64,000 nucleotides of DNA from Enhydrobacter aerosaccus (lineage in GTDB: Bacteria > Pseudomonadota > Alphaproteobacteria > Reyranellales > Reyranellaceae). The position numbers and the translations under genes are program-made. Position 1 is the stretch's first letter. Each line of letters opens with the position of its first letter. The stretch lies in assembly GCF_900167455.1 (NCBI RefSeq), contig NZ_FUWJ01000003.1, positions 248,001 through 312,000 of the forward strand, in the 5' to 3' direction. This document shows, piece after piece, positions 10,253-44,231 of the stretch. The notes below the pieces were generated by a model. The model searched no databases. It was given only the letters and a program-made list of their open reading frames with translations, and was not told the DNA's origin.

Positions 10253-11434
10253 TCAGGCGTACGGATCGGCGGCGTCGCGCATGCCGTCACCCATGAACTG
10301 GTAGGCCAGGATCACCAGGATCACCGGCACCACCGGGAACATCAGCCACCAGTTCACCGCCACCACGTTGATGTCGGTGGCCTCGTTCAGCAGCACGCCC
10401 CAGGAGGTGATCGGCGGCCGAAGCCCCAGTCCGAGGAAGCTCAGCGCGGTCTCGGCCAGGATCATGGAGGGGATGGACAGGGTCGCCGAGGCGATCAGAT
10501 GGCTCATGAAGCCGGGCAGCAGATGCCGGCCGATGATGCGGGCGGGCTTTGCCCCCATCATCTGAGCCGCGAGTGCGTAATCCTCCTCGCGCAGCGACAG
10601 CAGCTTGGAGCGCACCGCACGGCCGAGGCTCGGCCAGTCGAGCAGGGCCAGGATGAGCGTGATGCCGAAATAGATCAGCAGCGGCGACCACGTCACCGGT
10701 AGCGCGGCCGACAAGGCGAGCCACAGCGGCAGATGGGGGAAGCTCTTCAGGATCTCGGTCACGCGCTGCACCACGAGATCGACCCAGCCGCCGTAATAGC
10801 CAGCGAGGCCACCCAGGACGAGGGCGAGCGTGAATGACAGCACGATGCCGATGATGCCGATGGTGAGCGAGATGCGGGCCGCGTAGACGATGCGGCTCAG
10901 CATGTCGCGGCCGAGTCGATCGGTCCCCAGCAGGAAGAAGCTGCCATTCTCGGGTGGGCAGACGAAGTGGAATGTTCCCTCGACCAGGCCCCAGAACTCG
11001 TAGCGCTCGCCGGAGCAGAAAAACCGCAGCTTCTGCGGCTGGGAATGGTCGGGTTGGTAGACACGCTGCAGCGTGTCCATGTCGCGACCGATCTTCAGGC
11101 CATAGACGAACGGCCCCATGAACTTGCCGTCATGGAACAGATGCACGCCCTGGGGCGGCGCGAAGATATACTTGGCGTGCCGGGTATGAAGATCGTAGGG
11201 CGCGATCCATTCGCAGATCACGATCGACAGATACATCAGCGCCAGGAACGCCGCCGAGATGACCGCCGGCCGATGGCGGCGGAAGCGCCACCACATCAGC
11301 TTCCACTGGCCGGCCATGTAGTACTTTTCCTGCTCCGGCGTCAGCTTGTCGGCGACGTACGGATCCCAGGGCTCCCGGCTGACGAAATGCTGGCTCGTGG
11401 AACGCGTAGCCGGCGTGGATGTGGTGTCTGTCAT
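10253..11434 (-). CDS. Peptide-type ABC importer permease (DppC/OppC family)
   Basis: A 393-residue membrane protein. It has an OppC-type N-terminal membrane helix (about residues 57-78), an extended extracytoplasmic stretch (about 80-165), then the permease core from LLGTDRLGRDMLSRI (169-183). The cytoplasmic EAA-like loop is in EEDYALAAQMMGAKPARII. The long loop makes it larger than the usual 300 residues. It is the last gene of the minus-strand series, 7 bp after the DppB-like permease. No substrate-binding protein is encoded nearby. Confidence 0.93.
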   Translation of the reverse strand: MTDTTSTPATRSTSQHFVSREPWDPYVADKLTPEQEKYYMAGQWKLMWWRFRRHRPAVISAAFLALMYLSIVICEWIAPYDLHTRHAKYIFAPPQGVHLFHDGKFMGPFVYGLKIGRDMDTLQRVYQPDHSQPQKLRFFCSGERYEFWGLVEGTFHFVCPPENGSFFLLGTDRLGRDMLSRIVYAARISLTIGIIGIVLSFTLALVLGGLAGYYGGWVDLVVQRVTEILKSFPHLPLWLALSAALPVTWSPLLIYFGITLILALLDWPSLGRAVRSKLLSLREEDYALAAQMMGAKPARIIGRHLLPGFMSHLIASATLSIPSMILAETALSFLGLGLRPPITSWGVLLNEATDINVVAVNWWLMFPVVPVILVILAYQFMGDGMRDAADPYA

Positions 11435-11441
11435 GGCCGCC

Positions 11442-12440
11442 TCACTTCTCGCCTGCCGCGCCGAAGCGGATGCGCGGGTCGAGCGCCGCCAGCAGAAGGT
11501 CGGAGATCAGCATGCCGATCACCGTCAGCACCGCGACGAACAGCAGGAAGGTCGCGGCAAGGTTGACGTCCTGCGTCTTGAGCGCGTTCAGCAGCATCGG
11601 ACCCATGGTCGGCAACGACAGCACGACCGAGACGATCACCGATCCCGACACGACCTCGGGCAGAAGATGGCCGATATCCGCGACGAACGGATTGATGGCG
11701 TGGCGCAGCGGATATTTCACCAGCAGCTTGAAGGGCGACAGGCCCTTGGCGCGGCCGGTGACGACATACTGCTTCTGCAGCTCGTCCAGGAGGTTGGCGC
11801 GCAGCCGGCGGATCATGCCGGCCGTCCCGGATGTGCCGATTACGATCGTCGGGATCACGAGATGCTTGGCGACGGAGACGAACTTGTCCCACGACATCGG
11901 CTTCTCGATGAATTCGGGATCCATCAGGCCGCCGATCGACACGCCGAAATAGACCTTGCCCACATAGAGCAGCACCAGAGCCAGCAGGAAGTTCGGGATC
12001 GCCAGGCCGAGGAAACCAACGAAGGAAGCCGCGTAATCGCCGAACTTGTATTGGTGCGTCGCGGCGTAGACGCCGATGACGAACGATACGGTCCAGATGA
12101 AGATGATGGTGCAGCTTTCCATCACGATCGTGAGCATGAGGCGCTCGCCGATCAGATCCTTGACCGGAACGGTGTCCTGGCAGGACAGGCCGAAATCCCA
12201 GCGGAACACACCGCCGATCCAGTGGAAGAAGCGATACCAGACGGAATGATCGAGCCCGTAGAGGGCCCGCAGCTCGTCCGCGCGCGCAAGCGCATTGGCG
12301 TCGCCGCGCGACAGCAACTCGTCGATCTGCGACGTCACGCAGTCACCGGGCGGCATGTTGATGATCATGTAGACGATCAGGCTGATGACAAAGAGGGTTG
12401 GGATCATCAGCAGCAATCGGCGGGCGACGTAGTTCAGCAT
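11442..12440 (-). CDS. Peptide-type ABC importer permease (DppB/OppB family)
   Basis: A 332-residue membrane protein starting MLNYVARRLLLMIPTLFVIS, a classic DppB/OppB N-terminus. The family EAA-loop region TGRAKGLSPFKLLVKYPLRHA is near the C-terminal third. A two-cysteine periplasmic loop (GDCVTSQ, LSCQDTV) may form a disulfide. It starts 3 bp after the ATPase gene stop. The ATG at 12440 is chosen over a longer upstream reading on family grounds. Confidence 0.94.
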   Translation of the reverse strand: MLNYVARRLLLMIPTLFVISLIVYMIINMPPGDCVTSQIDELLSRGDANALARADELRALYGLDHSVWYRFFHWIGGVFRWDFGLSCQDTVPVKDLIGERLMLTIVMESCTIIFIWTVSFVIGVYAATHQYKFGDYAASFVGFLGLAIPNFLLALVLLYVGKVYFGVSIGGLMDPEFIEKPMSWDKFVSVAKHLVIPTIVIGTSGTAGMIRRLRANLLDELQKQYVVTGRAKGLSPFKLLVKYPLRHAINPFVADIGHLLPEVVSGSVIVSVVLSLPTMGPMLLNALKTQDVNLAATFLLFVAVLTVIGMLISDLLLAALDPRIRFGAAGEK

Positions 12441-12442
12441 GG

Positions 12443-14377
12443 TCAGGCCGCCTCCCTCGTCATGCGGACATAATGGCCGGGCTCGACCTCGGTCCAATAG
12501 AGCGGAGCGGTGCCGGTGTCGGTGAAGGGCGCTGGCCACTGCTTCGGATCGGAGGCCTTGCCTTCCATCAGCGCCCGCAGGTCGAGCCGCTGGTTAGGGT
12601 CGGGGATCGGGACCGCCGAGACAAGGGCCCGGGTGTAGGGATGCATCGGCTTGCGGAACAGTTCGCCCGCGGGCGCCAGCTCGACCAGCCGCCCGGCGCA
12701 CATCACCGCGATCCGGTCGGCGATATAGTCCACCACCGCCAGATTGTGGCTGATGAACAGGTAAGTGAGGCCGAGCTTCTTCTGCAGATCCTTGAGCAGA
12801 TTCAGGATCTGGGCCTGGATCGACACGTCCAGGGCCGAAACGGGCTCGTCGCAGATCACCATGTCGGGGCGCAGTGCCAGGGCGCGGGCGATGCCGATTC
12901 TCTGGCGCTGGCCGCCCGAGAAGGAGTGCGGGTAACGGCTGAGCTGCCGGCGATCGAGGCCGACCAGCTCCATCAGCTCGCCCACCATCTCGCGCCGATA
13001 GGCGTCGTCCCCAACCCTATGGATCACCAGCGGCTCGACCAGGATGTCGTAAACCGTCATGCGCGGATTGAGCGAGCCGAACGGGTCCTGGAAGATGAAC
13101 TGCAGCTTGGTGCGGAAGCGGGCGAGATCGTCACCCTCCAGCATCAAGACGTCGGTCTTGCGGCCCCAGTCGTCGAAGATCACCCGGCCGGCGCCTTCGT
13201 TGGGATCGGCGGAGACGCCGCGCATCAGCATCTTGCTGAGTGTGGTCTTGCCGCAGCCCGACTCGCCCACGAGTCCCAGACACTCGCCGCGCATCACGTC
13301 GAAGCTCACATCGTTCACGGCGCGCACGACCCGTGTCGCACCACCGCCCAGCAGCTGCTCCAGCAAGGTGTCGGCCTTGCGAATCTTGAAGGTCTTGCTG
13401 AGATGGCGGACCTTGAGAACCGGTGCCTTCGGGTTGAAGGTCGGGAGCGGCTTGGTTTCCGGCTTCTGCTGCAGCAGATGGCCGGTCGTCGCCTTGATTT
13501 CGCGAATGGGCGCGAGCCGCTCGTCCGGTTTCATGTCGAAGCGCGGCACGGCGTGCAACAAGGCCTTGAGATAGGGATGCTGCGGATCTCTGTAGATGTC
13601 GCGCAGGCCGCCCGCTTCCACCACCTTGCCGCGATACATGACCACGACATCATCGGCGACATTGGCGACCACGCCCAGATCGTGCGTGATCATCAGGAGC
13701 GCCATACCCAGTTCCTTCTGCAGATCCTTCATCAGACGCAGGATCTGGGCCTGGATGGTGACGTCGAGCGCGGTCGTGGGCTCGTCCGCGATCAGCAAGG
13801 CGGGACGGCACACCAGCGCCATGGCGATCATCGCGCGCTGGCGCAGCCCCCCGGACAGCTCGAACGGGTAGGTCCGCAATGCGCGCTTGGGATCGGGGAA
13901 ACCCACCATGCGCAGCATGGAAATGGTGATCTCGTCGATCTCGGCCCGGCTCAGCCGGCGCGACCGCCCTCCGCTGTCGCTATGCTGGCCGTGCAGCTCC
14001 ACGGCTTCGCCGATCTGATCTCCCACCGTGTGGAGCGCCGACAGCGACGTCATGGGCTCCTGGAAAATGATGGAGATCTCACCGCCGCAGATCTCGCGCA
14101 TCTCCGGTCCGTGCCGGTCGAGCTTGGCGATATCGACGACCGGCGATGCGTCGCGCGGATCCTTGAACAGGATCGAGCCGGAAGTGATCTTCGCCGGTCG
14201 AGGCAGCAGTCCCATGATGGCCTGGCTGCAGACCGACTTGCCTGATCCGGATTCGCCAACCAGTGCGACGGTACCGCCCGGCGGCATGGCGAACGAGACG
14301 TTGTCGACCGCCCGGACGATGCCCTCGTGCACGCCGAACTCGACCGTCAGGTTCTCTACTCGCAGCAGATCCTTCAT
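12443..14377 (-). CDS. Fused DppD-DppF-type ABC transporter ATPase
   Basis: A 644-residue protein with two complete peptide-transporter ATPase domains. Domain 1 has Walker A GESGSGKS (41-48), signature LSGG (174-177) and Walker B LLIADEP (194-200). Domain 2 has Walker A GESGCGKT (371-378), signature FSGGQ (486-490) and Walker B MVICDEP (506-512). Each is followed by the oligopeptide-type C-terminal extension ([24 protein letters not shown]). Its ATG overlaps the TGA of the preceding small membrane protein gene (ATGA, 14374-14377), joining the transporter to the glycan-gene series. Confidence 0.95.
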
Positions 14378-14880
14378 ACTGTCTCTTCCTGGCCTGCCAC
14401 GGAGATTCCCATCGACCTGAGATTGACGCGTGTTGCGTGACTGAGTTCGAGTTCGCAAGCTTCCGCCGCCTGCGCGGCACGTTCGACGATATCGTAAAAT
14501 CCATCGAGGGAGGAATCGATCTTCACGGTCCGTGCACCGGCAGATCGGATCACAAGCTGCATCCAGCCGCCCGACCTGTCCCGCTTGGTCGAATAGTAGG
14601 CGAGCTTCATGCGGTCGAGGCGCCCCCACTCGATCAAGCTGCCCCATGGACCGTCCGCTGCCAACGTGTCGCCGCTCAGCACGTAGCGCGTTTTCTGACG
14701 CAGCAGCGTGCGCACGCAGAAGAGAGCGAAGACGACGAAGCCGGACGCCAGAATCAAGCCGATCCATCGCTCGACCGGCAACAGCAACAGCGGCAACCCG
14801 CACAGCAGGCAGCCGCCGACAGCCCGTATGTAATCAGCCCACAGCGAATGGCGCGGATAGCTCAGCACCAACGAGTTCAA
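14374..14880 (-). CDS. Small membrane protein of unknown function (TTG start)
   Basis: About 168 residues with two adjacent hydrophobic segments near residues 20-60 and a soluble C-terminal half resembling a short PH-like or bacterial membrane-flanked domain. I do not recognise the family. The start is placed at TTG 14880: a strong GGGAGG sits 7 nt upstream, and the TTG overlaps the TGA of the deacetylase gene (TTGA). The stop in turn overlaps the ATG of the ABC ATPase. It is therefore translationally coupled on both sides and bridges the glycan genes and the peptide importer. Confidence 0.7.
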   Translation of the reverse strand: MNSLVLSYPRHSLWADYIRAVGGCLLCGLPLLLLPVERWIGLILASGFVVFALFCVRTLLRQKTRYVLSGDTLAADGPWGSLIEWGRLDRMKLAYYSTKRDRSGGWMQLVIRSAGARTVKIDSSLDGFYDIVERAAQAAEACELELSHATRVNLRSMGISVAGQEETV

Positions 14881-15638
14881 AGGCGCGCCTCCCGTGACGC
14901 GAAAATTTTCCGCGCCGTGCGCAGCTCGACGCCCGACGTCATTCTTGCCCTTCCCATCAAGGACCTTAGGAAATCCCAACCCCTCCCGTCCATCGCAAGA
15001 TGATGACTGAGGATGCCTACGGGCTCGCGCGAATTTCGCGCTGCCGCCAGCGCGCGGACGAGATCGGCCAAGGCCCTTTCCTCACCGACAAAGCCACGCC
15101 CGCCTTTCCAGTCGATCAGGTCGACATGTGCATTGACCTGGAGCAATCCGCGGACCGGTTCGGCACGGCGTCGATCGCCGAAGGTCGACAGGCCGACGAA
15201 GCCGATTTCCGGCAGAGTCGGCACCAGCCCCGGGGCGACCCGGTTCCACGGCGGCACCAGCACGGCCAGGGCACGCCCGGCAAAAAGTCTCTCCAGGGCG
15301 AGCCGTCCCGTTCCGAGTTCGCCCAGCACCTGCATGGCGGGTCGATGCGGACCCAATTCGCTCTTCTTGTCGGAATCGGGGGCGTGATTGGTGTGGGCGT
15401 AGCCATGCTGCAATATGTCGATCTCGGCTTCGTCCGACAGCCGGGCCGCCAACGCCGGTGTTGCCGCCGCCGGAACGACGGCCAATGCCAGCGGTACCTC
15501 GGTCTCTTGACGGAGAGCCAACAACCGATCGAGAGCAGGACTGAGGTCGACGGCATCATCGTCTCGCCACCACAGCACCGCCGTCTGCCCGCCGTCACGC
15601 CAGCGGGCGATCTCGTCGTCGAACGCTTGCCAAGTCAT
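14877..15638 (-). CDS. Polysaccharide deacetylase-family protein
   Basis: A 253-residue NodB-fold protein without a signal peptide. The catalytic/metal aspartates appear as WWRDDDAV (Asp26-28), the metal histidines as HGYAH (His78, His82), and the PPWNR motif is near residue 130. A late LSHHLAMD supplies the distal histidine. Such enzymes remove N- or O-acetyl groups from glycans. It is coupled by ATGA to the upstream glycosyltransferase (15635-15638) and by TTGA to the downstream membrane protein. With no export signal, it probably acts on a cytoplasmic glycan or glycolipid intermediate. Confidence 0.87.
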   Translation of the reverse strand: MTWQAFDDEIARWRDGGQTAVLWWRDDDAVDLSPALDRLLALRQETEVPLALAVVPAAATPALAARLSDEAEIDILQHGYAHTNHAPDSDKKSELGPHRPAMQVLGELGTGRLALERLFAGRALAVLVPPWNRVAPGLVPTLPEIGFVGLSTFGDRRRAEPVRGLLQVNAHVDLIDWKGGRGFVGEERALADLVRALAAARNSREPVGILSHHLAMDGRGWDFLRSLMGRARMTSGVELRTARKIFASREARL

Positions 15639-16768
15639 GACAGTTTCTGCCGCAAAAGCCGCACGGTCGCCTCCGCGCCACTCACATCACAAGGGGCAAA
15701 GCTTCGGATCGACGGCCCGTCAAGCGCGTTGGCAATGGCCTCGGCAAGGCGTTCCCCGGACAGCTGCTCGGCGGGCACGACCGCCACGGCGCCGCGCTCG
15801 GCCAGCAGGCGTGCCCGATCGCCTTGCTCTGTCTCGCGATCACTCGAAAAGGGAACGAGAACGGCGCGATCGGCATAGCGCAGGATGTCGATCACCGTGT
15901 TGTAACCGGCCTGGGAGATCGACAGGCTGGCATTCGACAGCAACGTCGTAAAATCGGCCCGGGCCGGCTCCACGATGATGCCATCCTCCTGCCGCAACGA
16001 CAGAAGCTCGGCCTCGGGCAGGTTGCCGCCAACGAGAAGACGCCAACGACGATTAGCCAGACGACTCAAGGGGCGGGCCGCTATCGCGGCCTTGAGCAAC
16101 GGGCCACCGACCGCGCCTCCCCCGACCGATACAATCACTTCGCCTTTCCCCGCATCGTCCGTTTTAGGCGGCGTGGCCGGGGACGCCACATAGCCGGTAT
16201 AGACGGCGCGCGCGGCAATCTGCTCCCATCCGACGAAACTCGCGGCAAAATTCGCCATGGCGGGATCCGCATGGATCAGCACCAGATCGAAGTCGGCCAG
16301 GGTCTCGATGGTTTGGGTGACGCGCGCGGGGGAGGCCGTACGGCGCACGACGTCGCGGACCGAGGAAACGATCAGCGGTCGCGGCCGCAAGTCACGTGCT
16401 GCTTCGAGGAGCGGCACCAGCTCGAAGCGCAACTGCGTGCGCCCGAACGGAAACTGCTCGGTGATGACCACAGAGGGTGTTTCCGCTTGCAGGAGGGAAA
16501 CCAGTTCCCGGGCGCGCGCCACGCGAAAGGCCTCGTCGAGCGGCGATCCGTCCAGCCGCGCCAATTCGCGCAGAGTGGCATCCCGAGCCCGAACGGGCGG
16601 AAGCTGATGCAAGCGCGCGGGCCCGAGATCGAGCGGGATCGGCGCGCCGCCAGAGACGAGCAGCACATCGAAGCCGTCTTCGGCCAAGGCACGCGCAACG
16701 ATCGCGGCGCGCCGCAGGTGACCGATGCCAAGCAGGTGCTGGACGTAGAAGAAGACCCGGCGGGTCAT
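15635..16768 (-). CDS. MurG/GT28-like glycosyltransferase
   Basis: A 377-residue GT-B-type protein. It begins VFFYVQHLLGIGHLRRA, a nucleotide-sugar GT N-terminus with the GxGH loop. The C-terminal half has VSVGGGAVGGPLL and SISQAGYNTVIDILRYADRAVLVPF, the donor-binding signature of GT28-like enzymes. It is similar in layout to the protein at 19840-21114. The start chosen is the ATG at 16768, which overlaps the phosphatase stop (ATGA). Acceptor and sugar are unknown. Confidence 0.85.
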   Translation of the reverse strand: MTRRVFFYVQHLLGIGHLRRAAIVARALAEDGFDVLLVSGGAPIPLDLGPARLHQLPPVRARDATLRELARLDGSPLDEAFRVARARELVSLLQAETPSVVITEQFPFGRTQLRFELVPLLEAARDLRPRPLIVSSVRDVVRRTASPARVTQTIETLADFDLVLIHADPAMANFAASFVGWEQIAARAVYTGYVASPATPPKTDDAGKGEVIVSVGGGAVGGPLLKAAIAARPLSRLANRRWRLLVGGNLPEAELLSLRQEDGIIVEPARADFTTLLSNASLSISQAGYNTVIDILRYADRAVLVPFSSDRETEQGDRARLLAERGAVAVVPAEQLSGERLAEAIANALDGPSIRSFAPCDVSGAEATVRLLRQKLS

Positions 16769-17364
16769 GCGCGATCCATGTCGACGTTGGCCTGTTCGAG
16801 AGTCACATGGCCATCGCGATGGGCCCGGAACAGATGAAGCTTCTGCCAATCGAGCTTTATCGGCTGCCGTCCGGTCATGTCCCAGCCCGTGGCGAGGGCG
16901 AGAAAGGCGCGGATGACGGCCTTGTGCGAGACTGCCAGCGCCGGCTCGCTGCTTGCGGCTATATCCGATGCCCACTCGCCGAGCCGGGCCATGACTGTTC
17001 GCGGCGACTCGCCCCCCGGAGGTTCGAAATCGAGCCCGCGGCCCTCGGCATCGATGAAAGTCGCCCCCAGTGTCATACGCAGCTCGGCGACCGTGCGCCC
17101 TTCCCAGGCTCCAAAGCTCATCTCACGCAAACGCGGATCGACGACCGGTACGGCGGAGGGCTGGAGCAGTTCGGCCGTACGGCGGGCGCGTGCGAGCGGA
17201 CTGCAAAAGCGCCTCCAGCCGTGTATTGGCGATGGAAGCGTCCAGGACGCCGCGATCGCTTCGCCCTCGGCGCTAAGCGGCACATCCGTCATACCCTGCA
17301 GGCGTCGGCCTTCGTTCCACGTTGTCGGGGCATGACGAAGGACGGCAAACAAGATCCCTCTCAT
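16765..17364 (-). CDS. Histidine phosphatase superfamily protein
   Basis: A 199-residue protein of the phosphoglycerate-mutase-like / CobC type. The catalytic RHAPTTWN is at residues 10-17 (nucleophile His11), the substrate arginine is in SPLARARRT, and the second histidine is in LAVSHKAVIRAF. Overlaps of 4 bp on both sides place it between glycosyltransferases, so it may dephosphorylate a sugar phosphate or nucleotide-sugar precursor rather than act in central metabolism. That role is inferred from position only. Confidence 0.87.
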   Translation of the reverse strand: MRGILFAVLRHAPTTWNEGRRLQGMTDVPLSAEGEAIAASWTLPSPIHGWRRFCSPLARARRTAELLQPSAVPVVDPRLREMSFGAWEGRTVAELRMTLGATFIDAEGRGLDFEPPGGESPRTVMARLGEWASDIAASSEPALAVSHKAVIRAFLALATGWDMTGRQPIKLDWQKLHLFRAHRDGHVTLEQANVDMDRA

Positions 17365-18467
17365 CGCACCAACTCCAGCGCAGCGGCGAGTCTGTGCGCC
17401 GCTGCCTTCTCATCGTGGTGCTGCAGAGCCCGGCGTGCCGCTCCAGCGGCAAGACGAGTGCGCTCGCCGGGATCATCGAGCAGGCGCGCGACTGCGGAAG
17501 CGAAGGCCGCGGCATCCCCGACCGGGGTCAGCAGACCGGAAATTCCATCGGCCACAACAGCGGGCACGCCGCCCGTCCGACCAGCCACGACCGGCAAGCC
17601 GGCGGCCTGGGCCTCGATAAAGGCCATGCCATAGGCTTCGTTGACGGCGGGCCACAGGTAAAGGTCGGCGGCGGCGTACAGCGCCGGCAACTGCGCATGC
17701 GGAACGGCGCCAGCGAACCGGACGCGCGCCCCGAACGGCGCCATCAACGCCTCGACCTCTCGGCGAGCCCCGCCATCGCCAACCAGCAGAGCCTGCCACG
17801 GCCGATCGCTCAGCCAAGAAAAGGCCTGCGCCAGCACGCGATAGGAATCGAGCTTGTCGCGCGGCCGCATCATGGCGACGGTCAGCAGGAGCGGCGGCTC
17901 GTTCTTCGAGCGTATCGTCGCCGCGGCGCGGTAGGGCGTCGTATCGATGAAGGGCGGCAGCAAGATCTGGTGTACGCCTGGTTGTAGCCGGGACCTGATG
18001 CCGGGCACATCTCGCGGATTTAGGGTCAGCACGAGATCGGCAGCGGCTAAGCTCCGCTCCACGGCGCGATGGCCAAGACGGGTGGCGCCCTGCGCCCGAC
18101 GAACCGAATGAGAGGCCTCGGCGATCACGTAGGGAATGCCAAGGGCCCGCGTCACCAGCGGCCCCAGCCAGTCCGGCTTGCGGTACCAGCAGTGATAGGT
18201 AAACCACAGATCGAAGCGTTCGGGATGGCGAGGTGGAAGCGATCGCCATCGAGTCACGAGACGCATCGCCTGGGCGCGAGCGCGCCGCTCGAGATCGAGA
18301 TGGGCCTCGGGATCCGGAATGCCGGGGGCGACGCGACTGCCCAGCGGCGCGACCAGCCGGTGACCCAACCGCCGCAGCAACCGCGCCAATCCTTTCGCCA
18401 TCTCGCGATCGCCCGAGGCAATGGGGCTATCGGGCGGTTTCAGCGGCGTGTGGAACAGCACGCGCAT
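17361..18467 (-). CDS. GT4-family glycosyltransferase
   Basis: A 368-residue GT-B retaining glycosyltransferase. The N-terminal half starts RVLFHTPLKPPDSPIASGDR. The C-terminal half holds the GT4 signature AVNEAYGMAFIEAQAAGLPVVAG, with the EX7E pair, and a conserved LLVGDGG. There is no membrane segment or signal. Its stop overlaps the phosphatase start by 4 bp; the preceding gene is 64 bp away. Confidence 0.9.
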   Translation of the reverse strand: MRVLFHTPLKPPDSPIASGDREMAKGLARLLRRLGHRLVAPLGSRVAPGIPDPEAHLDLERRARAQAMRLVTRWRSLPPRHPERFDLWFTYHCWYRKPDWLGPLVTRALGIPYVIAEASHSVRRAQGATRLGHRAVERSLAAADLVLTLNPRDVPGIRSRLQPGVHQILLPPFIDTTPYRAAATIRSKNEPPLLLTVAMMRPRDKLDSYRVLAQAFSWLSDRPWQALLVGDGGARREVEALMAPFGARVRFAGAVPHAQLPALYAAADLYLWPAVNEAYGMAFIEAQAAGLPVVAGRTGGVPAVVADGISGLLTPVGDAAAFASAVARLLDDPGERTRLAAGAARRALQHHDEKAAAHRLAAALELVR

Positions 18468-18531: not shown

Positions 18532-19824
18532 CTACTCCGCCGCGCGCGCCTCGGGAATCTCGATCTGGGGCGTGAGGTCGGCATGGGCCGGCAGTGCCAG
18601 AGAGCGCGCGATCCAGTCCACGCCCGCCTCGTAGGAAAAGCGGGTCCGCACCACTTCGTTGGCGCGCATGCCAAACCGAGCGCGCAGATCGGGATCGCGA
18701 GCAAGCTTCTCCAGTCCGGCGGCCAGCTGATCGGGAGCAGCCGGATCGGCCATCAGGCCGTTGTCGCCGTCGGTGATGAACTCGCCGATCGCGGCCGAGC
18801 GCGTCGACAGGATGGCCATGCGCTGATAGCCGGCCTCCTGCAGGACGTTGGGCATGCCCTCGCGATCGCCATCGTCGGCCGTCTTGCTCGCCAGCACGAA
18901 GATATCGGCGCGCTGATAGGCGGCGAAGACTTCGGCCTGGGGACGCGCGCCATGCCACACGCAACGGTCGCCAATGCCGAGCTGCTCGGCCATATGCTCG
19001 AAGGAATCGCCCAGCACGCCCGCACCGATATGTTCGAAGCGCCAGTTGATATCCTTGGGCAGCATGGCGAGCGCCGCCAGCAGATCGTCATAACCCTTCT
19101 TCGCGACCCGGCGACCAACCGACAGGATCACAACGGGATCCTTCGGATCGGACCCATCGCGCCGCGACCGCTGGGCTGGCGGCATCGGCAAGTTGGCTAG
19201 ATCGAGACCATGATACACGAGGCGCAGGCGCGTCTGATCGGACACCAGCTCCTTGAGTCGGCCCAGGGCATATTGGGTGCAAGTGATCAGCCAATCGATA
19301 TCGGCGAGCTTGGCCCGCAGCTCCCACTCCTGGCTGGTCCAGATATCCTTAGCATGGGCCGAGGCGCTCCAGGGCAGGCCGCGCATGATCGCGGCATAGC
19401 GCGTCGCCGAGGCCGGCGTATGGATGAAGTGGGCATACATGCGCTTGATACCCGCCGGCATCTCGGCGGCCAGCACCAGGCCCTGGCCGAACCGCCTTAT
19501 CCGGTTGGGCGTGCGATCGCGCACCAGATCGTGCAGGAAGCGGGCACGCGCGGCGCGATAGCCGGGCAGCTTGCGCGCCTTCCACCATGCGCGCAGGACA
19601 CGCAGCGGATCGTTCTTCAAGTATTCCGGCAGATAAACGATCGGCGCCTTCACGCGCGCATGAACCGGGTGAATGGCCGGATCGGTCGGCAGGCGCAGCG
19701 AGTAGATGACCAGCTTGAGTCCGCGCGCCTCCAGTCCCGCCATTTCCTGCGCGATGAAGGTCTCCGACAGACGCGGCCAACACTTCACTACGACCGCGAT
19801 CTGCGCGTCATTTCCATCTGTCAT
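18532..19824 (-). CDS. GT4-family glycosyltransferase
   Basis: A 430-residue glycosyltransferase of the colanic-acid/exopolysaccharide type. It opens VVVKCWPRLSETFIAQEM, a known N-terminal pattern of this group, and has VYHGLDL, SVGRRVAKKGYDDLL and the late REGMPNVLQEAGYQRMAIL segment that carries the GT4 EX7E motif. It lies 15 bp after the GT28-like gene in the same series. Sugar and acceptor are unknown. Confidence 0.91.
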   Translation of the reverse strand: MTDGNDAQIAVVVKCWPRLSETFIAQEMAGLEARGLKLVIYSLRLPTDPAIHPVHARVKAPIVYLPEYLKNDPLRVLRAWWKARKLPGYRAARARFLHDLVRDRTPNRIRRFGQGLVLAAEMPAGIKRMYAHFIHTPASATRYAAIMRGLPWSASAHAKDIWTSQEWELRAKLADIDWLITCTQYALGRLKELVSDQTRLRLVYHGLDLANLPMPPAQRSRRDGSDPKDPVVILSVGRRVAKKGYDDLLAALAMLPKDINWRFEHIGAGVLGDSFEHMAEQLGIGDRCVWHGARPQAEVFAAYQRADIFVLASKTADDGDREGMPNVLQEAGYQRMAILSTRSAAIGEFITDGDNGLMADPAAPDQLAAGLEKLARDPDLRARFGMRANEVVRTRFSYEAGVDWIARSLALPAHADLTPQIEIPEARAAE

Positions 19825-19839
19825 GAAACACCGATTGTT

Positions 19840-21114
19840 CTAGAGCTTGCTGCGCGCCGCCAAGCCATCGGATGCCGGAGTAGTCGGCGATGGCGTTTCG
19901 GGCGCGTCGACCGGCGCCGGCCCACGATGCGGCCGGGCGAGCTGCTTGGCGACGAGACGCCACACATTACCGAGGCCGTCGAGCAGCCCGGGCACGATGA
20001 CGTCGCTCGGCAAGCCCTGCTGCGGGAGTTGCCGGAGCGCCGTCGCCATAACGTGTGGATCGCGTCCCTTCCCGGGATCGAGCATCTCGACAAGGCCGAG
20101 ATTGCGCGCCGCCCGGGCGCGGATGAACTGCTCGAGCCTGGGCCGCGTGCGGGGCACGATGATGGCCCGCTTGTCGAAGGACAGTATCTCGCAGAACGTG
20201 TTGTAGCCGCCCATCGCCACGACGCCCGCCGCCCGCTGCATCAGGACACCCAGGTGGCTGGTAAAGGTGAGGGTGCGGATGTTGGGGAACCTGGCGGCCC
20301 GTTCCTTGAAGGCTTCGCGCGCCGTGGCCGACATGAACGGGCCGAACACGATCACCGCGCCATAAGGAATGTTCGGATCGGTCTCGTAGGCGGATACGAC
20401 CCAATCCACCAGATCTTCGCCGTCGCCGCCGCCGCCGGGCGTGACCAGGATGAACGGACCGTTGATCTCCTCGACTTCGTGCGGGATGTCCGCATGCAGC
20501 GGCAGATCGCGGCGCAAATAGCCTGTGTAGATGGTCTTGTGGCGGACCGATGGCGGCAATTCGAGCCCGGCCAGGGGCTTGTTTATCTGCGGCAGTCCAT
20601 AGGCCCAGATCTCGTCGTAGAGATCACGCAGGGCCGGCATCACGTTCTTGCGCTGCCATTCGACCGCGAGCTGGGCTGGATCGTCCACCACGTCGCGCAG
20701 ACCGTAGATCAGAGGCGTGCCGCGACCCTTCAGCAGCTCCAGGGTCGGCACCACCTCGCCGCGCAGGCCCAGCGGCTCCTTGTCGACGATGAACAGGTCC
20801 GGCCGATAGATATCGGCCGTGTCACGGATGATGCGAGTGCGAATCTCCAGCGTATGGTCGGCACCAACCCTCAGATTGGCGGCGTCATATTCGCCGGTTA
20901 TCTGCTTCACCATGCCCGGGATACGCACGAAATCGATGCCCGAACGGAACTCGTAGGACCCGATCACGGGCGATCCCGATATGATCAGGACCGAGATCGA
21001 GTTGTCGGCCTCGACGATGGCATTGGCGATCGTGCGGCAGCGGCTGACATGGCCGAGGCCGTAAGAGTCGTGACTGTAGAGCAGCACACGCTTTGACCGG
21101 CTGCTGGCGGGCAT
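19840..21114 (-). CDS. MurG/GT28-like glycosyltransferase, first gene of the glycan series
   Basis: A 424-residue GT-B protein starting RVLLYSHDSYGLGHVSRCR. Its C-terminal donor site includes LVTPGGGGDGEDL and AMGGYNTFCEILSFDKRAIIVPR. It is a distant paralogue of the 15635-16768 protein in layout and motifs. It is the first gene of the minus-strand set and is divergent, across 172 bp, from the ABC exporter-like gene at 21287, so a shared control region is likely. The C-terminal 30 residues are Pro/Ala-rich. Confidence 0.87.
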   Translation of the reverse strand: MPASSRSKRVLLYSHDSYGLGHVSRCRTIANAIVEADNSISVLIISGSPVIGSYEFRSGIDFVRIPGMVKQITGEYDAANLRVGADHTLEIRTRIIRDTADIYRPDLFIVDKEPLGLRGEVVPTLELLKGRGTPLIYGLRDVVDDPAQLAVEWQRKNVMPALRDLYDEIWAYGLPQINKPLAGLELPPSVRHKTIYTGYLRRDLPLHADIPHEVEEINGPFILVTPGGGGDGEDLVDWVVSAYETDPNIPYGAVIVFGPFMSATAREAFKERAARFPNIRTLTFTSHLGVLMQRAAGVVAMGGYNTFCEILSFDKRAIIVPRTRPRLEQFIRARAARNLGLVEMLDPGKGRDPHVMATALRQLPQQGLPSDVIVPGLLDGLGNVWRLVAKQLARPHRGPAPVDAPETPSPTTPASDGLAARSKL

Positions 21115-21286: not shown

Positions 21287-24001
21287 ATGCAGCGCAACCT
21301 CTTCTCATATATCTGGCGGCACAGCAGGCCCGAGCAGCTGGTCATTCTGGGTCTCGTGGTTCTGGCCCAGGTCTTCTATTTCCTGTCGCTCAGCGTGCCG
21401 AAGTCGATCGTCAACAACGGCATCACCGGCATTGCCTTCAAAGCGGCAGCGGACGTTCGCATCCTGAGGATCGACATCCCCCTGCCGGATTTCCTAGGGG
21501 GCACGATACGCCTGCTCAACGGCTTCCGGGTCGATCAGCTCCAGTATCTCGTGGTCATGAGCTTCGTCTTCCTGGTCGCGGTGATCATCAACAGCGAGTT
21601 CAAGAAGACGATCAACACCCAGAAGGGCCGGATGGGCGAGCGCATGCTGCGGCGCATGCGCTTCGAGCTCTACGATCGCATCCTGCGCTTCCCGCCGGCG
21701 CATTTTCGCAAGGTCAAGCAGGCCGAGCTGGCGACCATGATCAAGGACGAGGTCGAGCCCTTGGGCGGCTTCATCGGCGACGCCTTCGTGCAGCCGATGT
21801 TCCTAGGCGGTCAGGCACTGACGGCGATCGCCTTCATCATGATGCAGAACCTGCTTCTCAGCCTCGTGGTGATCGCCCTGCTGGGGGTGCAGATGGTGAT
21901 CGTGCCACGCCTGCGCAAACCAGTCCTGGTGCTCGGGCGGCAACGGCAAATTTCAGCCCGCCTGCTCGCCGGCCGCATTGCCGAGACCGCCGACGGCGTG
22001 AGCGAGATCCATGTCCACGGTGCATCGAACTACGAGCGCGCCGATATCTCCGAGCGCCTCGGCCATATCTTCAAGATCCGGTTCGATCTCTACAACAAGA
22101 AGTTCGTCGCCAAGTTCTGGAACAACATCCTGTCCCAGGCGACGCCGTTCGCGATCTACTTGCTGGGTGGCTACTTCGCGATCACCGGCAAGATGGATGT
22201 CGGCGCGGTCGTCGGCGTCCTGCTCGCCTACAAGGACCTGCCGTCGCCGATCAAGGAGCTGATCGATTGGGATCAGCAGCGTCAGGACGTGCAGATCAAG
22301 TACGAGCAGGTGATCGACCAGTTCCAACCCGAAGGCATGATGCCGCCGGAACTGCAGGCCTTGCCCGACGGACCGCCGCCATCTCTCGGCCACGAATTCG
22401 TCCTGTCCAGCGTGACGGTGTCCGACGACGGCCGGGTCAAGCAGCTCGACTCCGTCAATTTGACCCTGGCCACGGATACCAGGCTGGCGGTGATCGGTGC
22501 GGCGAGTTCCGGCAAGGACGTGCTGGGCCAGGTGCTCGGCCGCCTGACCTTGCCGAGCAGCGGATCGATACGGATCGACGGTCAGGACTTCTTCCAGATT
22601 CCCGAATACGTCCTTGGTTCACGGGCCGGCTATATCGGCCAAGAGACTTATCTCTTCCCGCTGTCGGTGCGTGACAATCTGCTGTTCGGCCTCAAGCATC
22701 GCCCGGTGAAGCCCGCGACCTACGACGAGGAAACGCGAGCGGTTCGCGAGGCTTTCTGGCGCGAGACGGCGCGAGCCGGCAATCCGGTGCTCGATCCCAA
22801 TGCCGACTGGATCGATTACGAACTCGCGGGCGCCACCGGTCCGGCCGATCTGCTGCCGCGCGTCGTCGATGTCCTCAAGCAGGTCGAGTTCGACGAGGAG
22901 ATATATTCGCTGGGCTTACGTGGCGCGATCGACGGCATGCGCCGCCCGGACCTCGCCGAGAAGATTCTGGCCGCCCGCAAGGCGCTGCATGGCCGCCTGC
23001 AGGATCCGGGATATGCGGGTCTGATCGAGCCCTTCAACGCCGACAAGTACAACAAGAACCTGTCGGTGGCGGAGAACCTGCTGTTCGGCACGCCGGTCGG
23101 CCGGGAGTTCGACGGCGACAATCTGGCCGCCAATGCCTACATGCTGTCGGTCCTGAAGGATACGGGTTTGGACCAGGATTTGCTCCGCATGGGCCTTTCC
23201 ATCGCGGAAACCATGGTCGAACTCTTCTCCGGCCTGTCGCCCGACAACCCGCTGTTCGAGCAATACAGCTTCATCTCCGCCGACGAACTGCCCAATGTCC
23301 GCCTGCTGCTGCAAAGACTGGGCGGCAAGGGCGTCGAGGCCGTGCCCGAGGCCGATCGGCCGAGGCTGATGACGCTCCCGCTGCGCTACATCGAGGCACG
23401 CCACCGCTTGGGTCTGATCGATGCGGCCATGGAGGAGCGGCTGCTGGCAGCCCGCCGCGAGTTTGCCGCCCACCTGCCGGACAGCCTGCGCGGCGCGGTC
23501 GAGTTCTACGATTTTGCCCGCTACAACAGCGCCGCCACCGTGCAGGACAATGTGCTGTTTGGCCGTCTCGTCTATGGCCAGGCCCAGGCCGAGGCCCGGA
23601 TCGTCACTCTGATCACCACGGTCCTCACCGAACTCAGTCTGCGCGATTCGGTGATCGAGGTCGGGCTGGAGTACAATGTCGGCGTCGCCGGCAAGCGGCT
23701 CCCCGCGACCCAGCGCCAGAAACTCGGAATCGCCCGCGCCCTGATCAAGCGACCACAATTTCTGGTAGTGAACGAAGCTGTGGCAGTGTTCGACGGACGT
23801 ACCCAGGATCGCATTCGCGATAATATCCTGGCGGCAACGAAAGACGGTCGGGGCGTGGTCTGGATCGCGAATCGACCGAGCCAGGCGGAAAAGTTCGACC
23901 GGGTTCTGGTGATGCAGGGAGGTCGGATCGTCGCCCACGGCGCGCCGGAAGAGCTCAAGTCGAAAGGCGGGCTCTATTGCGAGCTCGTCCAACAGGCCTA
24001 G
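21287..24001 (+). CDS. ABC exporter-like protein with non-canonical nucleotide-binding domain
   Basis: A 904-residue half-transporter-like protein. Residues 1-330 form a type IV ABC membrane domain (hydrophobic segments near 18-38, 88-103, 170-205 and 283-315). The nucleotide-binding part starts near 370, but each key motif deviates: Walker A is GAASSGKD (404-411, Asp for Ser/Thr), the signature position reads LPATQRQK (805-812), Walker B is FLVVNEA (825-831, Asn for Asp), and the switch histidine is Asn862. Between Q-loop (Gln452) and signature lies about 330 residues instead of about 90, with an internal duplication at 558-601 and 717-759. ATP hydrolysis is doubtful. It is followed by a cNMP-binding and a methyltransferase gene and is divergent from glycosyltransferases. 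Confidence 0.85.
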   Translation: MQRNLFSYIWRHSRPEQLVILGLVVLAQVFYFLSLSVPKSIVNNGITGIAFKAAADVRILRIDIPLPDFLGGTIRLLNGFRVDQLQYLVVMSFVFLVAVIINSEFKKTINTQKGRMGERMLRRMRFELYDRILRFPPAHFRKVKQAELATMIKDEVEPLGGFIGDAFVQPMFLGGQALTAIAFIMMQNLLLSLVVIALLGVQMVIVPRLRKPVLVLGRQRQISARLLAGRIAETADGVSEIHVHGASNYERADISERLGHIFKIRFDLYNKKFVAKFWNNILSQATPFAIYLLGGYFAITGKMDVGAVVGVLLAYKDLPSPIKELIDWDQQRQDVQIKYEQVIDQFQPEGMMPPELQALPDGPPPSLGHEFVLSSVTVSDDGRVKQLDSVNLTLATDTRLAVIGAASSGKDVLGQVLGRLTLPSSGSIRIDGQDFFQIPEYVLGSRAGYIGQETYLFPLSVRDNLLFGLKHRPVKPATYDEETRAVREAFWRETARAGNPVLDPNADWIDYELAGATGPADLLPRVVDVLKQVEFDEEIYSLGLRGAIDGMRRPDLAEKILAARKALHGRLQDPGYAGLIEPFNADKYNKNLSVAENLLFGTPVGREFDGDNLAANAYMLSVLKDTGLDQDLLRMGLSIAETMVELFSGLSPDNPLFEQYSFISADELPNVRLLLQRLGGKGVEAVPEADRPRLMTLPLRYIEARHRLGLIDAAMEERLLAARREFAAHLPDSLRGAVEFYDFARYNSAATVQDNVLFGRLVYGQAQAEARIVTLITTVLTELSLRDSVIEVGLEYNVGVAGKRLPATQRQKLGIARALIKRPQFLVVNEAVAVFDGRTQDRIRDNILAATKDGRGVVWIANRPSQAEKFDRVLVMQGGRIVAHGAPEELKSKGGLYCELVQQA

Positions 24002-24050: not shown

Positions 24051-24500
24051 ATGAACCTCAACGAGGAAGTGGAGATTCTCAAGGGTGTGCCACTCTTCTC
24101 CAAGGTCGAACCGGCCAAACTCAAGCTGATCGCCTTCACGGGCGAACGAATGCACTACGCCGAAGGCCAGGAGCTGTTCCATCAGGGGGATGTGGGCGAC
24201 GCCATGTATGTCATTCTGGGCGGCACGGCCGATGTGCTGCTGGAAACGCCCGGTGGCCAGATCCGGGTCGCCGAGTTAAGGAGGAACAGTTTCGTCGGCG
24301 ATATCGCCATCCTGTGCGACGTGCCGCGTACCGCGACCATCCGTGCGCGCGAGCCGTTGACGACCTTGAAGATCTCCAAGGATATGTTCTATCGACTGGT
24401 CTCGGAATTCCCACAGATGGCGATCGAGATGATGCGCGAGCTGGCGCACCGCCTCGAGGACACGAATCAGAAACTTCGCGCCGCCACCAAAGCCGCCTGA
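24051..24500 (+). CDS. Stand-alone cyclic-nucleotide-binding domain protein
   Basis: A 149-residue protein made of one Crp-type cyclic-nucleotide-binding domain (about residues 10-125), with no helix-turn-helix and no enzyme domain. The phosphate-binding cassette is NSFVGDIAILCDVPRTATIRA, keeping the Arg but with Asp where Glu is usual. An AGGAGG Shine-Dalgarno is 6 nt upstream. It lies 49 bp after the ABC gene and 10 bp before the methyltransferase gene. It is likely a small regulatory or docking partner of the transporter; this is inference. Confidence 0.88.
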   Translation: MNLNEEVEILKGVPLFSKVEPAKLKLIAFTGERMHYAEGQELFHQGDVGDAMYVILGGTADVLLETPGGQIRVAELRRNSFVGDIAILCDVPRTATIRAREPLTTLKISKDMFYRLVSEFPQMAIEMMRELAHRLEDTNQKLRAATKAA

Positions 24501-24510
24501 ACGATCCTCC

Positions 24511-24999
24511 ATGAGCCGCCTCGACAGTTTCATCGCGCGCATGAAAGCGCAGCGCGACTGCCTGAACTTCCTCCAGCCCGAGATCGATCGCCTGCCCGGT
24601 CCCATTTTCGAAGTCGGCCTCGGCAATGGCCGAACCTACGATCACCTGCGCACGCTCTTTCCCGGCCGCGACATCTACGTGTTCGAACGGCAGGTCGCCG
24701 CCCATCCCGACTGTATCCCGCCGGAGGACCATCTCTTTCTCGGCGAAGCACGCGAGTCCATTCCACGCGCAGCGGCCCGTCTGGGTGCTACCGCAGCATT
24801 GATCCATACCGACCTGGGCACCGGAGATCATGCTGCCAACGTGGCCATGGGCGAATGGCTCGGCCCGGCGCTTGACGCACTCGCGGCTTCCGGCGGCTAT
24901 GTGCTCGCCAACCAGTCTCTCAAGGTGCCGCGGTGGGAGCGCTTGCCCGAGCCGCCGGGCGTTCCTGCGGATCGCTATTTCCTCTACCGGGTTCGTTAA
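24511..24999 (+). CDS. Class I SAM-dependent methyltransferase-like protein
   Basis: A 162-residue protein with motif I FEVGLGNGRTYDHL (residues 33-46), an acidic YVFERQV motif II and a DLGTGDH segment, consistent with a short Rossmann methyltransferase. It is shorter than most family members (200-250 residues). It follows the cNMP-binding gene by 10 bp. Its stop codon overlaps the convergent GlsB-like gene stop (TTAA, 24996-24999). The substrate is unknown. Confidence 0.75.
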   Translation: MSRLDSFIARMKAQRDCLNFLQPEIDRLPGPIFEVGLGNGRTYDHLRTLFPGRDIYVFERQVAAHPDCIPPEDHLFLGEARESIPRAAARLGATAALIHTDLGTGDHAANVAMGEWLGPALDALAASGGYVLANQSLKVPRWERLPEPPGVPADRYFLYRVR

Positions 25000-41122: not shown

Positions 41123-42046
41123 ATGGCGGCGTTGGTTGACGGAGGCCGTAACCCTGTGGACTCTGGCGGAGGGGTTATCTATCCGGGAATTGTGGCGTTG
41201 GCCGATGGTTTGAAAGTCCGTTTCTGGGGCGTGCGAGGATCTATCGCCTGCCCCGGACCCGAATACGCCCGCTATGGCGGCAATACGCCGTGTCTAGAGG
41301 TCATGGCTGGAGGCCGGCGGTTGATATTCGACGCCGGCACGGGGATTCGCGAGCTCGGGTTGGAACTGGCGCGTCAGGCGCCGCTGGATATCGATATCTA
41401 CTTTACGCATACCCATCTCGATCACCTGGCCGGACTGACGTTCTTTGCCCCGCTATTCGACAAGCGCAATTCCATCCGGATGTGGGCGGGCCACCTCGAA
41501 GGGCCCCATACGCTGAAGACAGTGGTCAAGAGCCTGATGCAGGCGCCGCTGTACCCCGTATCGCTCGAGGCTTTCCAAGCCACGATCACTTTTCGCGAGT
41601 TCGACTGCGGCGCCGTGCTGTCATGTGGCGACATCTCCCTTCGGACCGGCATCCTCAACCATCCTAACGGGGCGACGGGTTATCGCGTCGACCACAAGGG
41701 GAAGTCGCTGTGCTACATTACGGATACGGAACACCGTCCCGAGGGAATTGACACCGGCATTGTCGACCTTTGCCGCGGTGCCGATCTCATGATCTACGAC
41801 TCGACCTTCACGGATGCCGAATATCCCCGATATCGCGGATGGGGACACTCAACGTGGCAGGAAGGCGTTCGGGTCGCAGACGCGGCCCAGGTCGGCACCC
41901 TGGTGATCTTCCATCACGATCCAAATCATGACGATGCGTTCATGGATGCGGTTGCCCGCGACGCCGCCCTGCTCCGCCCCGGCACGACCGCGAACGGGTT
42001 GCCTCGCGTGATCGTCGCCCATGAGGGGCTGATTCTCAGCCCGTGA
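41123..42046 (+). CDS. Metallo-beta-lactamase-fold hydrolase (PhnP/RNase Z-like)
   Basis: A protein of up to 307 residues. The metal site THTHLDH is at about residues 95-101, with later ligands in GILNHPNGATGY, CYITDTEH, YDSTF and the HHDP segment. The domain starts at KVRFWGVRGSIACPG, so the first 25-30 codons may not be translated; GTG at 41192 is an alternative start. It resembles cyclic-phosphodiesterase-like or PqsE/PhnP-like MBL proteins. Its stop overlaps the next gene start (GTGA), which leads to a nucleotide cyclase gene. Confidence 0.88.
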   Translation: MAALVDGGRNPVDSGGGVIYPGIVALADGLKVRFWGVRGSIACPGPEYARYGGNTPCLEVMAGGRRLIFDAGTGIRELGLELARQAPLDIDIYFTHTHLDHLAGLTFFAPLFDKRNSIRMWAGHLEGPHTLKTVVKSLMQAPLYPVSLEAFQATITFREFDCGAVLSCGDISLRTGILNHPNGATGYRVDHKGKSLCYITDTEHRPEGIDTGIVDLCRGADLMIYDSTFTDAEYPRYRGWGHSTWQEGVRVADAAQVGTLVIFHHDPNHDDAFMDAVARDAALLRPGTTANGLPRVIVAHEGLILSP

Positions 42047-42879: not shown

Positions 42880-44231
42880 TGTGGCGCGCGCTGCGGTCGT
42901 GGTTGTTTGATAGCGACGGGACCCAGAAGCTTCCCGAACGCGTACAGGCTGCGATCCAGCACCAACAGGAACGCAGCGAAATCCTGATTGCCTGGATCCA
43001 GTTGGCCATCGTGGCGCTCGTCGCGACCGTCTACGAATCCACGTCGATGCCCGCCGGCGTCGTGCAGGACGACTATTCCTTCGAGACCCAGGTCTTCGCC
43101 ATTTATGGCGCGTTCTGCATTATCCGGCTGGGACTCGCCTATGCGCGGCGCCTGCGTCCGTGGATGCTCTATGTTGCCGTCATCGCCGATGTCGGCCTGC
43201 TGATGGGGCTGATCTATTCCTTTCACTACAAGTACGCGCAGCCGGCGGTCTTCTATCTGAAGGTCCCGACGCTTCTTTACGTCTTCCTCCTGATCGCCCT
43301 GCGCACGCTCCGATTCGAGGCCCGGTTCGTCATCTTCACCGGACTGGTTGCCGTAGCGGGCTGGATTGCCCTCATTTTGTATGCGTTGGGCGGCCGCGGC
43401 GGGCCGGCCAACCCGACCGACGATTTCGTCGAATACATGACCTCCAACGCGTTCCTGCTGCATGCCGAGGTCGACAAGATCATTGCCATTCTTCTCACGA
43501 CCGCCGTGCTTGCAGTGTCCATCTCGCGAGCGCGTCAGTTGCTTGTCCGCGCCGTCAGCGAGGGCGCGGCGGCCCGCGACTTGTCGCGCTTCTTCGATCC
43601 CGGCGTAGCAACGCGCATTCGCACCGCCGCGATGACGGTCAAAGCGGGCGAAGGCGAACTGCGCGATGCCACGATCCTCACCGTCGATCTCCGAGGCTTC
43701 ACGCATCTCTCGGCAGAGCTTGCGCCGGACGATGTGATGAAACTTCTGCAGGACTACCAGGCGCGACTCTGTCCTCATATCGTCGGCAATGGCGGCAGCA
43801 TCGACAAGTTCCTGGGCGACGGCATCCTTGCCTCGTTCGGCGCCGTGGCTCCCTCGTCGACAGCAGCAGCGGATGCTCTTCGGGCAGTGGATGCGATCAT
43901 CGATGCCGCCGATCATTGGAACAGCGAGCGCGACCTCTCCGGGCTCGCACCGCTTGTTGTCGGCCTGGCGGTCTCGTCCGGGCCCGTCTTGTTCGGGGCT
44001 GTCGGCGACGGCGAACGGCTTGAATTCACAGTGATCGGCGACACCGTCAATTTTACGTCGAAACTGGAAAAGCAGAACAAGGACGAGGGAACACGAGCCC
44101 TGACGGACGCTCGCACCTATGCGCTCGCCCAGAACCAAGGCTACATTTCACAAACCAAGCGGGAAAACCGACCAGGACGCCGCGTCGCCGGCGTACCGGA
44201 ATTGGTCGATATTGTGGTGCTGGCCGCATAG
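42879..44231 (+). CDS. Membrane-bound class III adenylate/guanylate cyclase
   Basis: A 450-residue protein with about six N-terminal membrane helices (residues 35-215) and a class III cyclase domain (about 260-445). Metal aspartates are Asp270 (LTVDLRGFTHLS) and Asp314 (DKFLGDGILASFG). The transition-state arginine normally found in VNxAxRLE is a lysine here (Lys395 in GDTVNFTSKLE), and the Asn391 is kept. Activity may be altered. It could supply a cyclic nucleotide to cNMP-binding proteins in this genome. Confidence 0.92.
   Translation: MWRALRSWLFDSDGTQKLPERVQAAIQHQQERSEILIAWIQLAIVALVATVYESTSMPAGVVQDDYSFETQVFAIYGAFCIIRLGLAYARRLRPWMLYVAVIADVGLLMGLIYSFHYKYAQPAVFYLKVPTLLYVFLLIALRTLRFEARFVIFTGLVAVAGWIALILYALGGRGGPANPTDDFVEYMTSNAFLLHAEVDKIIAILLTTAVLAVSISRARQLLVRAVSEGAAARDLSRFFDPGVATRIRTAAMTVKAGEGELRDATILTVDLRGFTHLSAELAPDDVMKLLQDYQARLCPHIVGNGGSIDKFLGDGILASFGAVAPSSTAAADALRAVDAIIDAADHWNSERDLSGLAPLVVGLAVSSGPVLFGAVGDGERLEFTVIGDTVNFTSKLEKQNKDEGTRALTDARTYALAQNQGYISQTKRENRPGRRVAGVPELVDIVVLAA

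Follow-up and report, generated by a model that had tools for sequence, protein, structure and literature searches.

The window, a 64,000-nucleotide stretch of the Enhydrobacter aerosaccus genome, carries on its forward strand a gene for an ABC protein with degenerate nucleotide-binding motifs, a gene for a small cyclic nucleotide-binding (cNMP-binding, CNB) protein that begins 49 bases downstream, and a methyltransferase gene. The principal features are:

21287-24001, + strand: pseudo-ABC half-exporter, 904 aa
21287-22276, + strand: transmembrane domain (TMD), aa 1-330 (PF00664, E=2.9e-12), the most conserved part of the family
22496-22519, + strand: degenerate Walker A GAASSGKD, aa 404-411, with Asp instead of Ser/Thr
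23699-23713, + strand: degenerate signature LPATQ, aa 805-809
23759-23776, + strand: degenerate Walker B FLVVNE, aa 825-830, with Asn829 for Asp and Glu830 retained
23870-23872, + strand: H-switch position, Asn862 (ANRP) in place of His
24051-24500, + strand: stand-alone CNB protein, 149 aa (PF00027, E=5.5e-19)
24511-24999, + strand: Methyltransf_17 SAM methyltransferase, often the third gene (PF12692, E=3.7e-58)

The ABC frame is open over 904 codons with no internal stop, and its product is a type IV (MsbA/TmrAB-like) ABC half-exporter in which a six-helix exporter TMD precedes the nucleotide-binding domain (NBD). Both ABC_membrane (PF00664) and ABC_tran (PF00005) exceeded Pfam gathering cut-offs, in agreement with an earlier note that the membrane domain is kept, and a phmmer search of PDB matched ABCB-type exporters. 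The AF2 model, built from a 34-sequence alignment (mean pLDDT 81.3, pTM 0.73), is that of an exporter half, with pLDDT mostly about 90 in the NBD and below 50 in two TMD stretches. Foldseek matched this model to TmrAB and MsbA (target TM-score about 0.55-0.65).

ATP defines the ABC proteins as a group, and the window protein does not carry the motif set of a functional ABC ATPase (GxxxxGK[ST], LSGGQ, hhhhDE and H-switch). The earlier note placed the altered motifs at 22496-23890, an interval that starts at Gly404 of Walker A and ends at residue 868, slightly beyond the H-switch, and GAASSGKD, LPATQ, VVNE (Asn829) and ANRP (Asn862) were all confirmed as written. Canonical motifs elsewhere in the protein, which that note had named as evidence against its reading, were searched for: no GxxxxGK[ST] or LSGGQ-like motif occurs anywhere else in the 904 residues, inserted sequence included. 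The claim that every motif is altered stands for motifs; extended to every catalytic residue it is too strong because the protein still has the Walker A Gly and Lys410, Q-loop Gln452 and Walker B Glu830.

Homologue alignment shows that the altered motifs are a family-wide trait. Within Alphaproteobacteria, a class-level search at E below 1e-60 detected relatives in 98 of 289 genomes, and a query restricted to the insert region detected them in 131 of 385. A phylum-wide sample of 399 genomes gave 31 matches, all 31 in the same class, and 263 plasmid records, mostly rhizobial, also carry a family member. Motifs were tallied in 60 representatives below 65% identity, drawn from an uneven family sample. 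Canonical states were present at Walker A in 3, at the signature (Ser and Gly) in 2, at Walker B DE in 3, at the His in 15 and at the Gln in 10. No representative is canonical at Walker A, signature, Walker B and His together, and 42 of 60 are canonical at none of them. The Walker A Ser/Thr position is acidic in 41 of 60 (Glu in 23, Asp in 18), and the Walker B Asp is lost in 46 of 59, most often to Asn (28) or Ser (12). Retained residues include the Walker A Lys (34/60), the Walker B Glu (28/59) and the D-loop Asp (52/60). The Lys is missing from the Sinorhizobium meliloti protein (GGTSGGGE) and from Sulfitobacter and Azospirillum members, whose Walker A is unrecognisable in proteins fused to CNB. 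The few near-canonical members (L025, L028 and L145) fall within the family and not at one edge in a tree built without the motif columns; this tree was midpoint-rooted, so the direction of motif change is not proven. Covariation of an acidic Walker A with a neutral Walker B is weak (Fisher P 0.016, uncorrected for phylogeny), and we did not count it in support of a rebuilt metal site.

Pairwise comparison with six close relatives gave dN/dS of 0.07-0.20 overall and 0.02-0.06 from signature to H-switch, indicative of purifying selection. Because the same positions are degenerate family-wide in a gene under such selection, degeneracy exceeds what chance would leave. A pseudogene is ruled out by the open frame, the dN/dS values and conservation in roughly one in three sampled genomes, and the earlier note was right that this is not a broken gene. 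Conservation is highest in the membrane domain: alignment columns vary least in the TMD (mean entropy 1.60 versus about 2.0-2.2 elsewhere), and the window protein is 67% identical in the TMD and 57% in the NBD to its counterpart in a related genus. A canonical exporter (L008) showed the reverse pattern in the same species pair (59% and 64%, respectively), a small control of one pair, since L008 has too narrow a distribution for entropy to be compared across the whole family. One family copy (L131, genome G210) contains two in-frame stops and is possibly decaying or mis-assembled. Genome G154 has three diverged fused ABC-CNB copies (L120, L121 and L124), all with unrecognisable Walker A. The ABC frame on pSymB of S. 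meliloti 1021 (L161, NC_003078.1) is interrupted around residue 135-150 and open in strain 2011 (L158) and other records, which could reflect an error in sequencing or a genuine difference between strains.

The NBD also contains an extra stretch of about 330 aa between Q-loop and signature. Profile comparison of non-overlapping segments resolved three copies of one unit, in which a Q-loop-like strand precedes two helices, 'xxNLLFG' and then 'GL':

22616-22954, + strand: repeat 1, aa 444-556, the native Q-loop GYIGQETYLF plus SVRDNLLFG (hhalign to repeat 2 E=8.5e-7, to repeat 3 E=1.2e-6)
22955-23422, + strand: repeat 2, aa 557-712, GLIEPFNADKYNKNLSVAENLLFG (hhalign to repeat 3 E=2.3e-17)
23423-23695, + strand: repeat 3, aa 713-803, GAVEFYDFARYNSAATVQDNVLFG, running into the signature (hhalign)

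The NLLFG Asn of each copy (residues 464, 597 and 755) ranks with the best-conserved positions in the family. The Q-loop segment native to the NBD is itself repeat 1, so the domain appears to have expanded through duplication of its own helical-subdomain segment. The insert has no homologs among PDB sequences and no Pfam match, and its identity with a known domain was rejected on these grounds. Neither the triplicated insert nor the surface-polysaccharide context described below figured in the earlier note.

The CNB protein has cNMP_binding as its sole Pfam domain, and among homologs of solved structure it comes closest to PKG, PKA-R and bacterial CNG-type domains. It has the PF00027 fold with the phosphate-binding cassette GE..L..PR(T/S)A, in which the window copy substitutes Asp for Glu; across orthologs the pocket Glu is conserved in 50 of 54 and the Arg in 54 of 54. 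At 149 aa, with PF00027 alone and no C-terminal HTH, it is too short for a CRP/FNR transcription factor, and this assignment was rejected. All but 6 full-length ABC loci have a same-strand CNB neighbour or a C-terminal CNB fusion, the latter in 9 retrieved loci as well as in Sulfitobacter and Azospirillum. A strict adjacency count gave 29 exceptions, most of which have CNB in an overlapping long stop-to-stop or truncated frame. Genomes with neither an adjacent nor a fused CNB are G224, G157, G255, G108, G087 and G283; four of these six encode an ortholog (50-63% identical) elsewhere, G108 has no ortholog at all, and the G255 genome is just 63% complete. Three of the corresponding ABC proteins (L162, L163 and L164, from G224, G157 and G255) have relatively canonical NBDs with GKT or DE, and His kept, a possible trade-off between canonical NBD and linked CNB (n=3). 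That the two genes are almost always adjacent, that several lineages fuse CNB to the ABC C-terminus and that the ligand pocket is intact argue for a functional link between the two proteins, which is the part of the earlier suggestion of gating by the adjacent cNMP protein that these data support.

Upstream of the ABC gene, on the reverse strand, lies a cluster of glycan genes followed by genes of an importer:

19840-21114, - strand: GT28-type glycosyltransferase (GT28a; PF04101), divergent, adjoining across families
18532-19824, - strand: GT4 glycosyltransferase (PF00534)
17361-18467, - strand: GT4 glycosyltransferase (PF13692)
16765-17364, - strand: histidine phosphatase (PF00300)
15635-16768, - strand: GT28/MurG-like glycosyltransferase (PF04101), start taken as 16768 (16975 in the open reading frame list)
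14877-15638, - strand: polysaccharide-deacetylase-like protein, itself with no Pfam hit, assigned by homology to the cluster deacetylase
10253-14350, - strand: Opp-type importer, two permeases and a fused DppDF ATPase, 55-62% identical to Rhizobium cluster genes

This GT28-GT4-GT4-phosphatase-GT28-deacetylase cluster adjoins the ABC-CNB pair across families, either divergently, as in the window, or co-directionally. In Sulfitobacter, the six glycan genes run co-directionally straight into the fused ABC-CNB gene. The deacetylase-like gene is a homolog of an annotated polysaccharide deacetylase in the Mesorhizobium cluster and occupies the same place in Sulfitobacter. Importer genes are recurrent in this cluster, in organisms ranging from Reyranella to Rhizobium and Azospirillum. 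Adenylate/guanylate cyclase genes lie inside rhizobial clusters and near several other loci, and are not adjoining in most lineages. Elsewhere in the window, frames at 43638-44090 (+) and 59340-59804 (-) resemble the cyclases of rhizobial clusters (about 30% identity), and 41204-41965 (+) encodes an MBL-fold hydrolase 46% identical to the product of the gene that follows CNB in Mesorhizobium.

Plasmid pSymB of S. meliloti 2011 carries both the ABC ortholog and the CNB gene. In a record with no gene table, gene counting from a glycosyltransferase taken as SMb21265 (PMC10128002) to the LacI gene SMb21272 (PMC11387232) puts ABC near SMb21269 and CNB near SMb21270. This order spoke against MsbA2 (SMb21191), a rejected candidate for the ortholog, and would place the pair inside the PPP (phazolicin-protecting polysaccharide) locus, about SMb21252-SMb21271. 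According to Travin et al. (PMC10128002), nine genes between smb21252 and smb21271 are required for PPP, an uncharacterised surface polysaccharide, and insertions in them lower fitness with phazolicin. Seven of nine PPP genes rise under Myxococcus attack (PMC10315480). The locus is defined by mutant phenotype, and we found no role for an ABC or CNB protein in the part of its description that was read (PMC10128002). The same study reports cyaA as depleted in the phazolicin screen, with only a small MIC change in the cyaA mutant. The link to cAMP in S. meliloti could run via the transcription factor Clr rather than the CNB protein, and cAMP dependence there may be transcriptional.

Motif loss under strong selection, TMD conservation and the CNB partner together find their simplest account in an exporter fold that has turned from ATP hydrolysis to a role under cyclic-nucleotide control in a surface-glycan pathway. 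We lean toward a pseudo-ATPase ABC protein of surface-glycan assembly or export, probably a homodimer, that is controlled by CNB instead of driven by ATP hydrolysis. Such a protein would have ceased to cycle through ATP hydrolysis. With the triplicated Q-loop/helical segment added to it, the NBD would have become a regulatory and coupling module on which the CNB protein docks, and binding of a cyclic nucleotide, most likely cAMP, to CNB would set the state of the TMD or of the surrounding glycan complex. The glycan would be made by the adjacent glycosyltransferase and deacetylase genes, and the ABC protein would assemble it or export it, possibly in lipid-linked form. With the ATP site apparently lost, the TMD under selection and CNB nearly always present, a second messenger may replace ATP as the switch. 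Points against this reading are the Asp at the pocket Glu position of the window CNB, the binding of ppGpp and not cAMP by the CNB of HetC (PMC10986499), and cyclase genes that in most lineages do not adjoin the pair. A more specific proposal, which we advance tentatively, is a cyclic-nucleotide-switched flippase or channel in which cAMP or a similar ligand on docked or fused CNB takes the place of ATP and the triplicated Q-loop segment transmits the signal to surface-glycan export.

Retention of GxxxxGK in the window protein, and of Lys, Glu and D-loop Asp in many relatives, would also fit a protein that still binds ATP with no or very slow hydrolysis, so that ATP-dependent NBD closure persists, as at degenerate sites of MRP1 or CFTR, and CNB serves as a modulator. 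Degenerate sites of known exporters hold ATP tightly (PMC7756269). We regard this alternative as rather unlikely, since most representatives have an acidic residue beside the phosphates where Ser/Thr would coordinate Mg, the signature Ser and Gly are lost, and 26 of 60 representatives, together with S. meliloti, lack the Lys. Because that Lys is gone in S. meliloti, Sulfitobacter and Azospirillum alike, ATP binding is unlikely as a general property of the family; for members lacking the P-loop Lys, their sequences make it very unlikely. Slow turnover is possible in some members, as the window protein keeps Lys, Gln and Glu and a few relatives look nearly canonical. Pseudoenzymes often act as scaffolds or sensors, and lost catalytic motifs, recurring gene-cluster linkage and a CNB partner are what would be expected of a scaffold or sensor for a glycosyltransferase complex with no transport function. 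However, the TMD is the best conserved part of the protein, suggestive of a membrane-embedded function, and we consider a pure scaffold improbable. The least probable arrangement, to which we assign very little weight, is an asymmetric heterodimer with a canonical half-exporter encoded elsewhere. Known degenerate half-exporters do pair with a consensus half (TM287/288, BmrCD and TmrAB), and the genome has many other exporters. Yet Walker A, signature and Walker B are degenerate alike, so both composite sites of such a heterodimer would be damaged, and the conserved partner is CNB, not an ATPase. The earlier idea of pairing with another ATPase also fares poorly at the loci themselves, as a homology scan revealed no second ABC exporter in any family locus examined; the DppDF-type gene, considered as a partner ATPase next door, encodes an Opp-type importer ATPase and was dismissed.

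The family resembles the MsbA and PglK homodimers and the TmrAB halves in TMD fold, TMD-NBD order and NBD core. It differs from them in that no sampled member has a fully canonical nucleotide site, and in adding the repeat insert, the CNB partner and a TMD conserved above the NBD. Degenerate ATP-site motifs are likewise tolerated in working TM287/288, BmrCD, TmrAB, MRP1, CFTR and SUR, but these proteins keep one consensus site, whereas both would be degenerate in a homodimer of this family. A search of openly licensed literature returned no direct match for an ABC exporter lacking both ATP sites. HetC-type peptidase exporters offer a precedent, as their CNB domain is part of an ABC exporter that depends on it for function (PMC10986499). 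HetC differs in requiring an ATPase catalytic residue, in having a C39 peptidase domain and in an N-terminal CNB that binds ppGpp, not cAMP (PMC10986499). With no peptidase domain in the window protein, and CNB separate or C-terminal, we rejected classification of the family as HetC-like cNMP exporters.

If the favored reading holds, the family would constitute a natural experiment on what an exporter fold does without hydrolysis and with rewired ligand control of its NBD. A direct cAMP effector that acts outside transcription would also have a candidate in Alphaproteobacteria, encoded at a locus that is linked, in a nitrogen-fixing symbiont, to tolerance of antimicrobial peptides.
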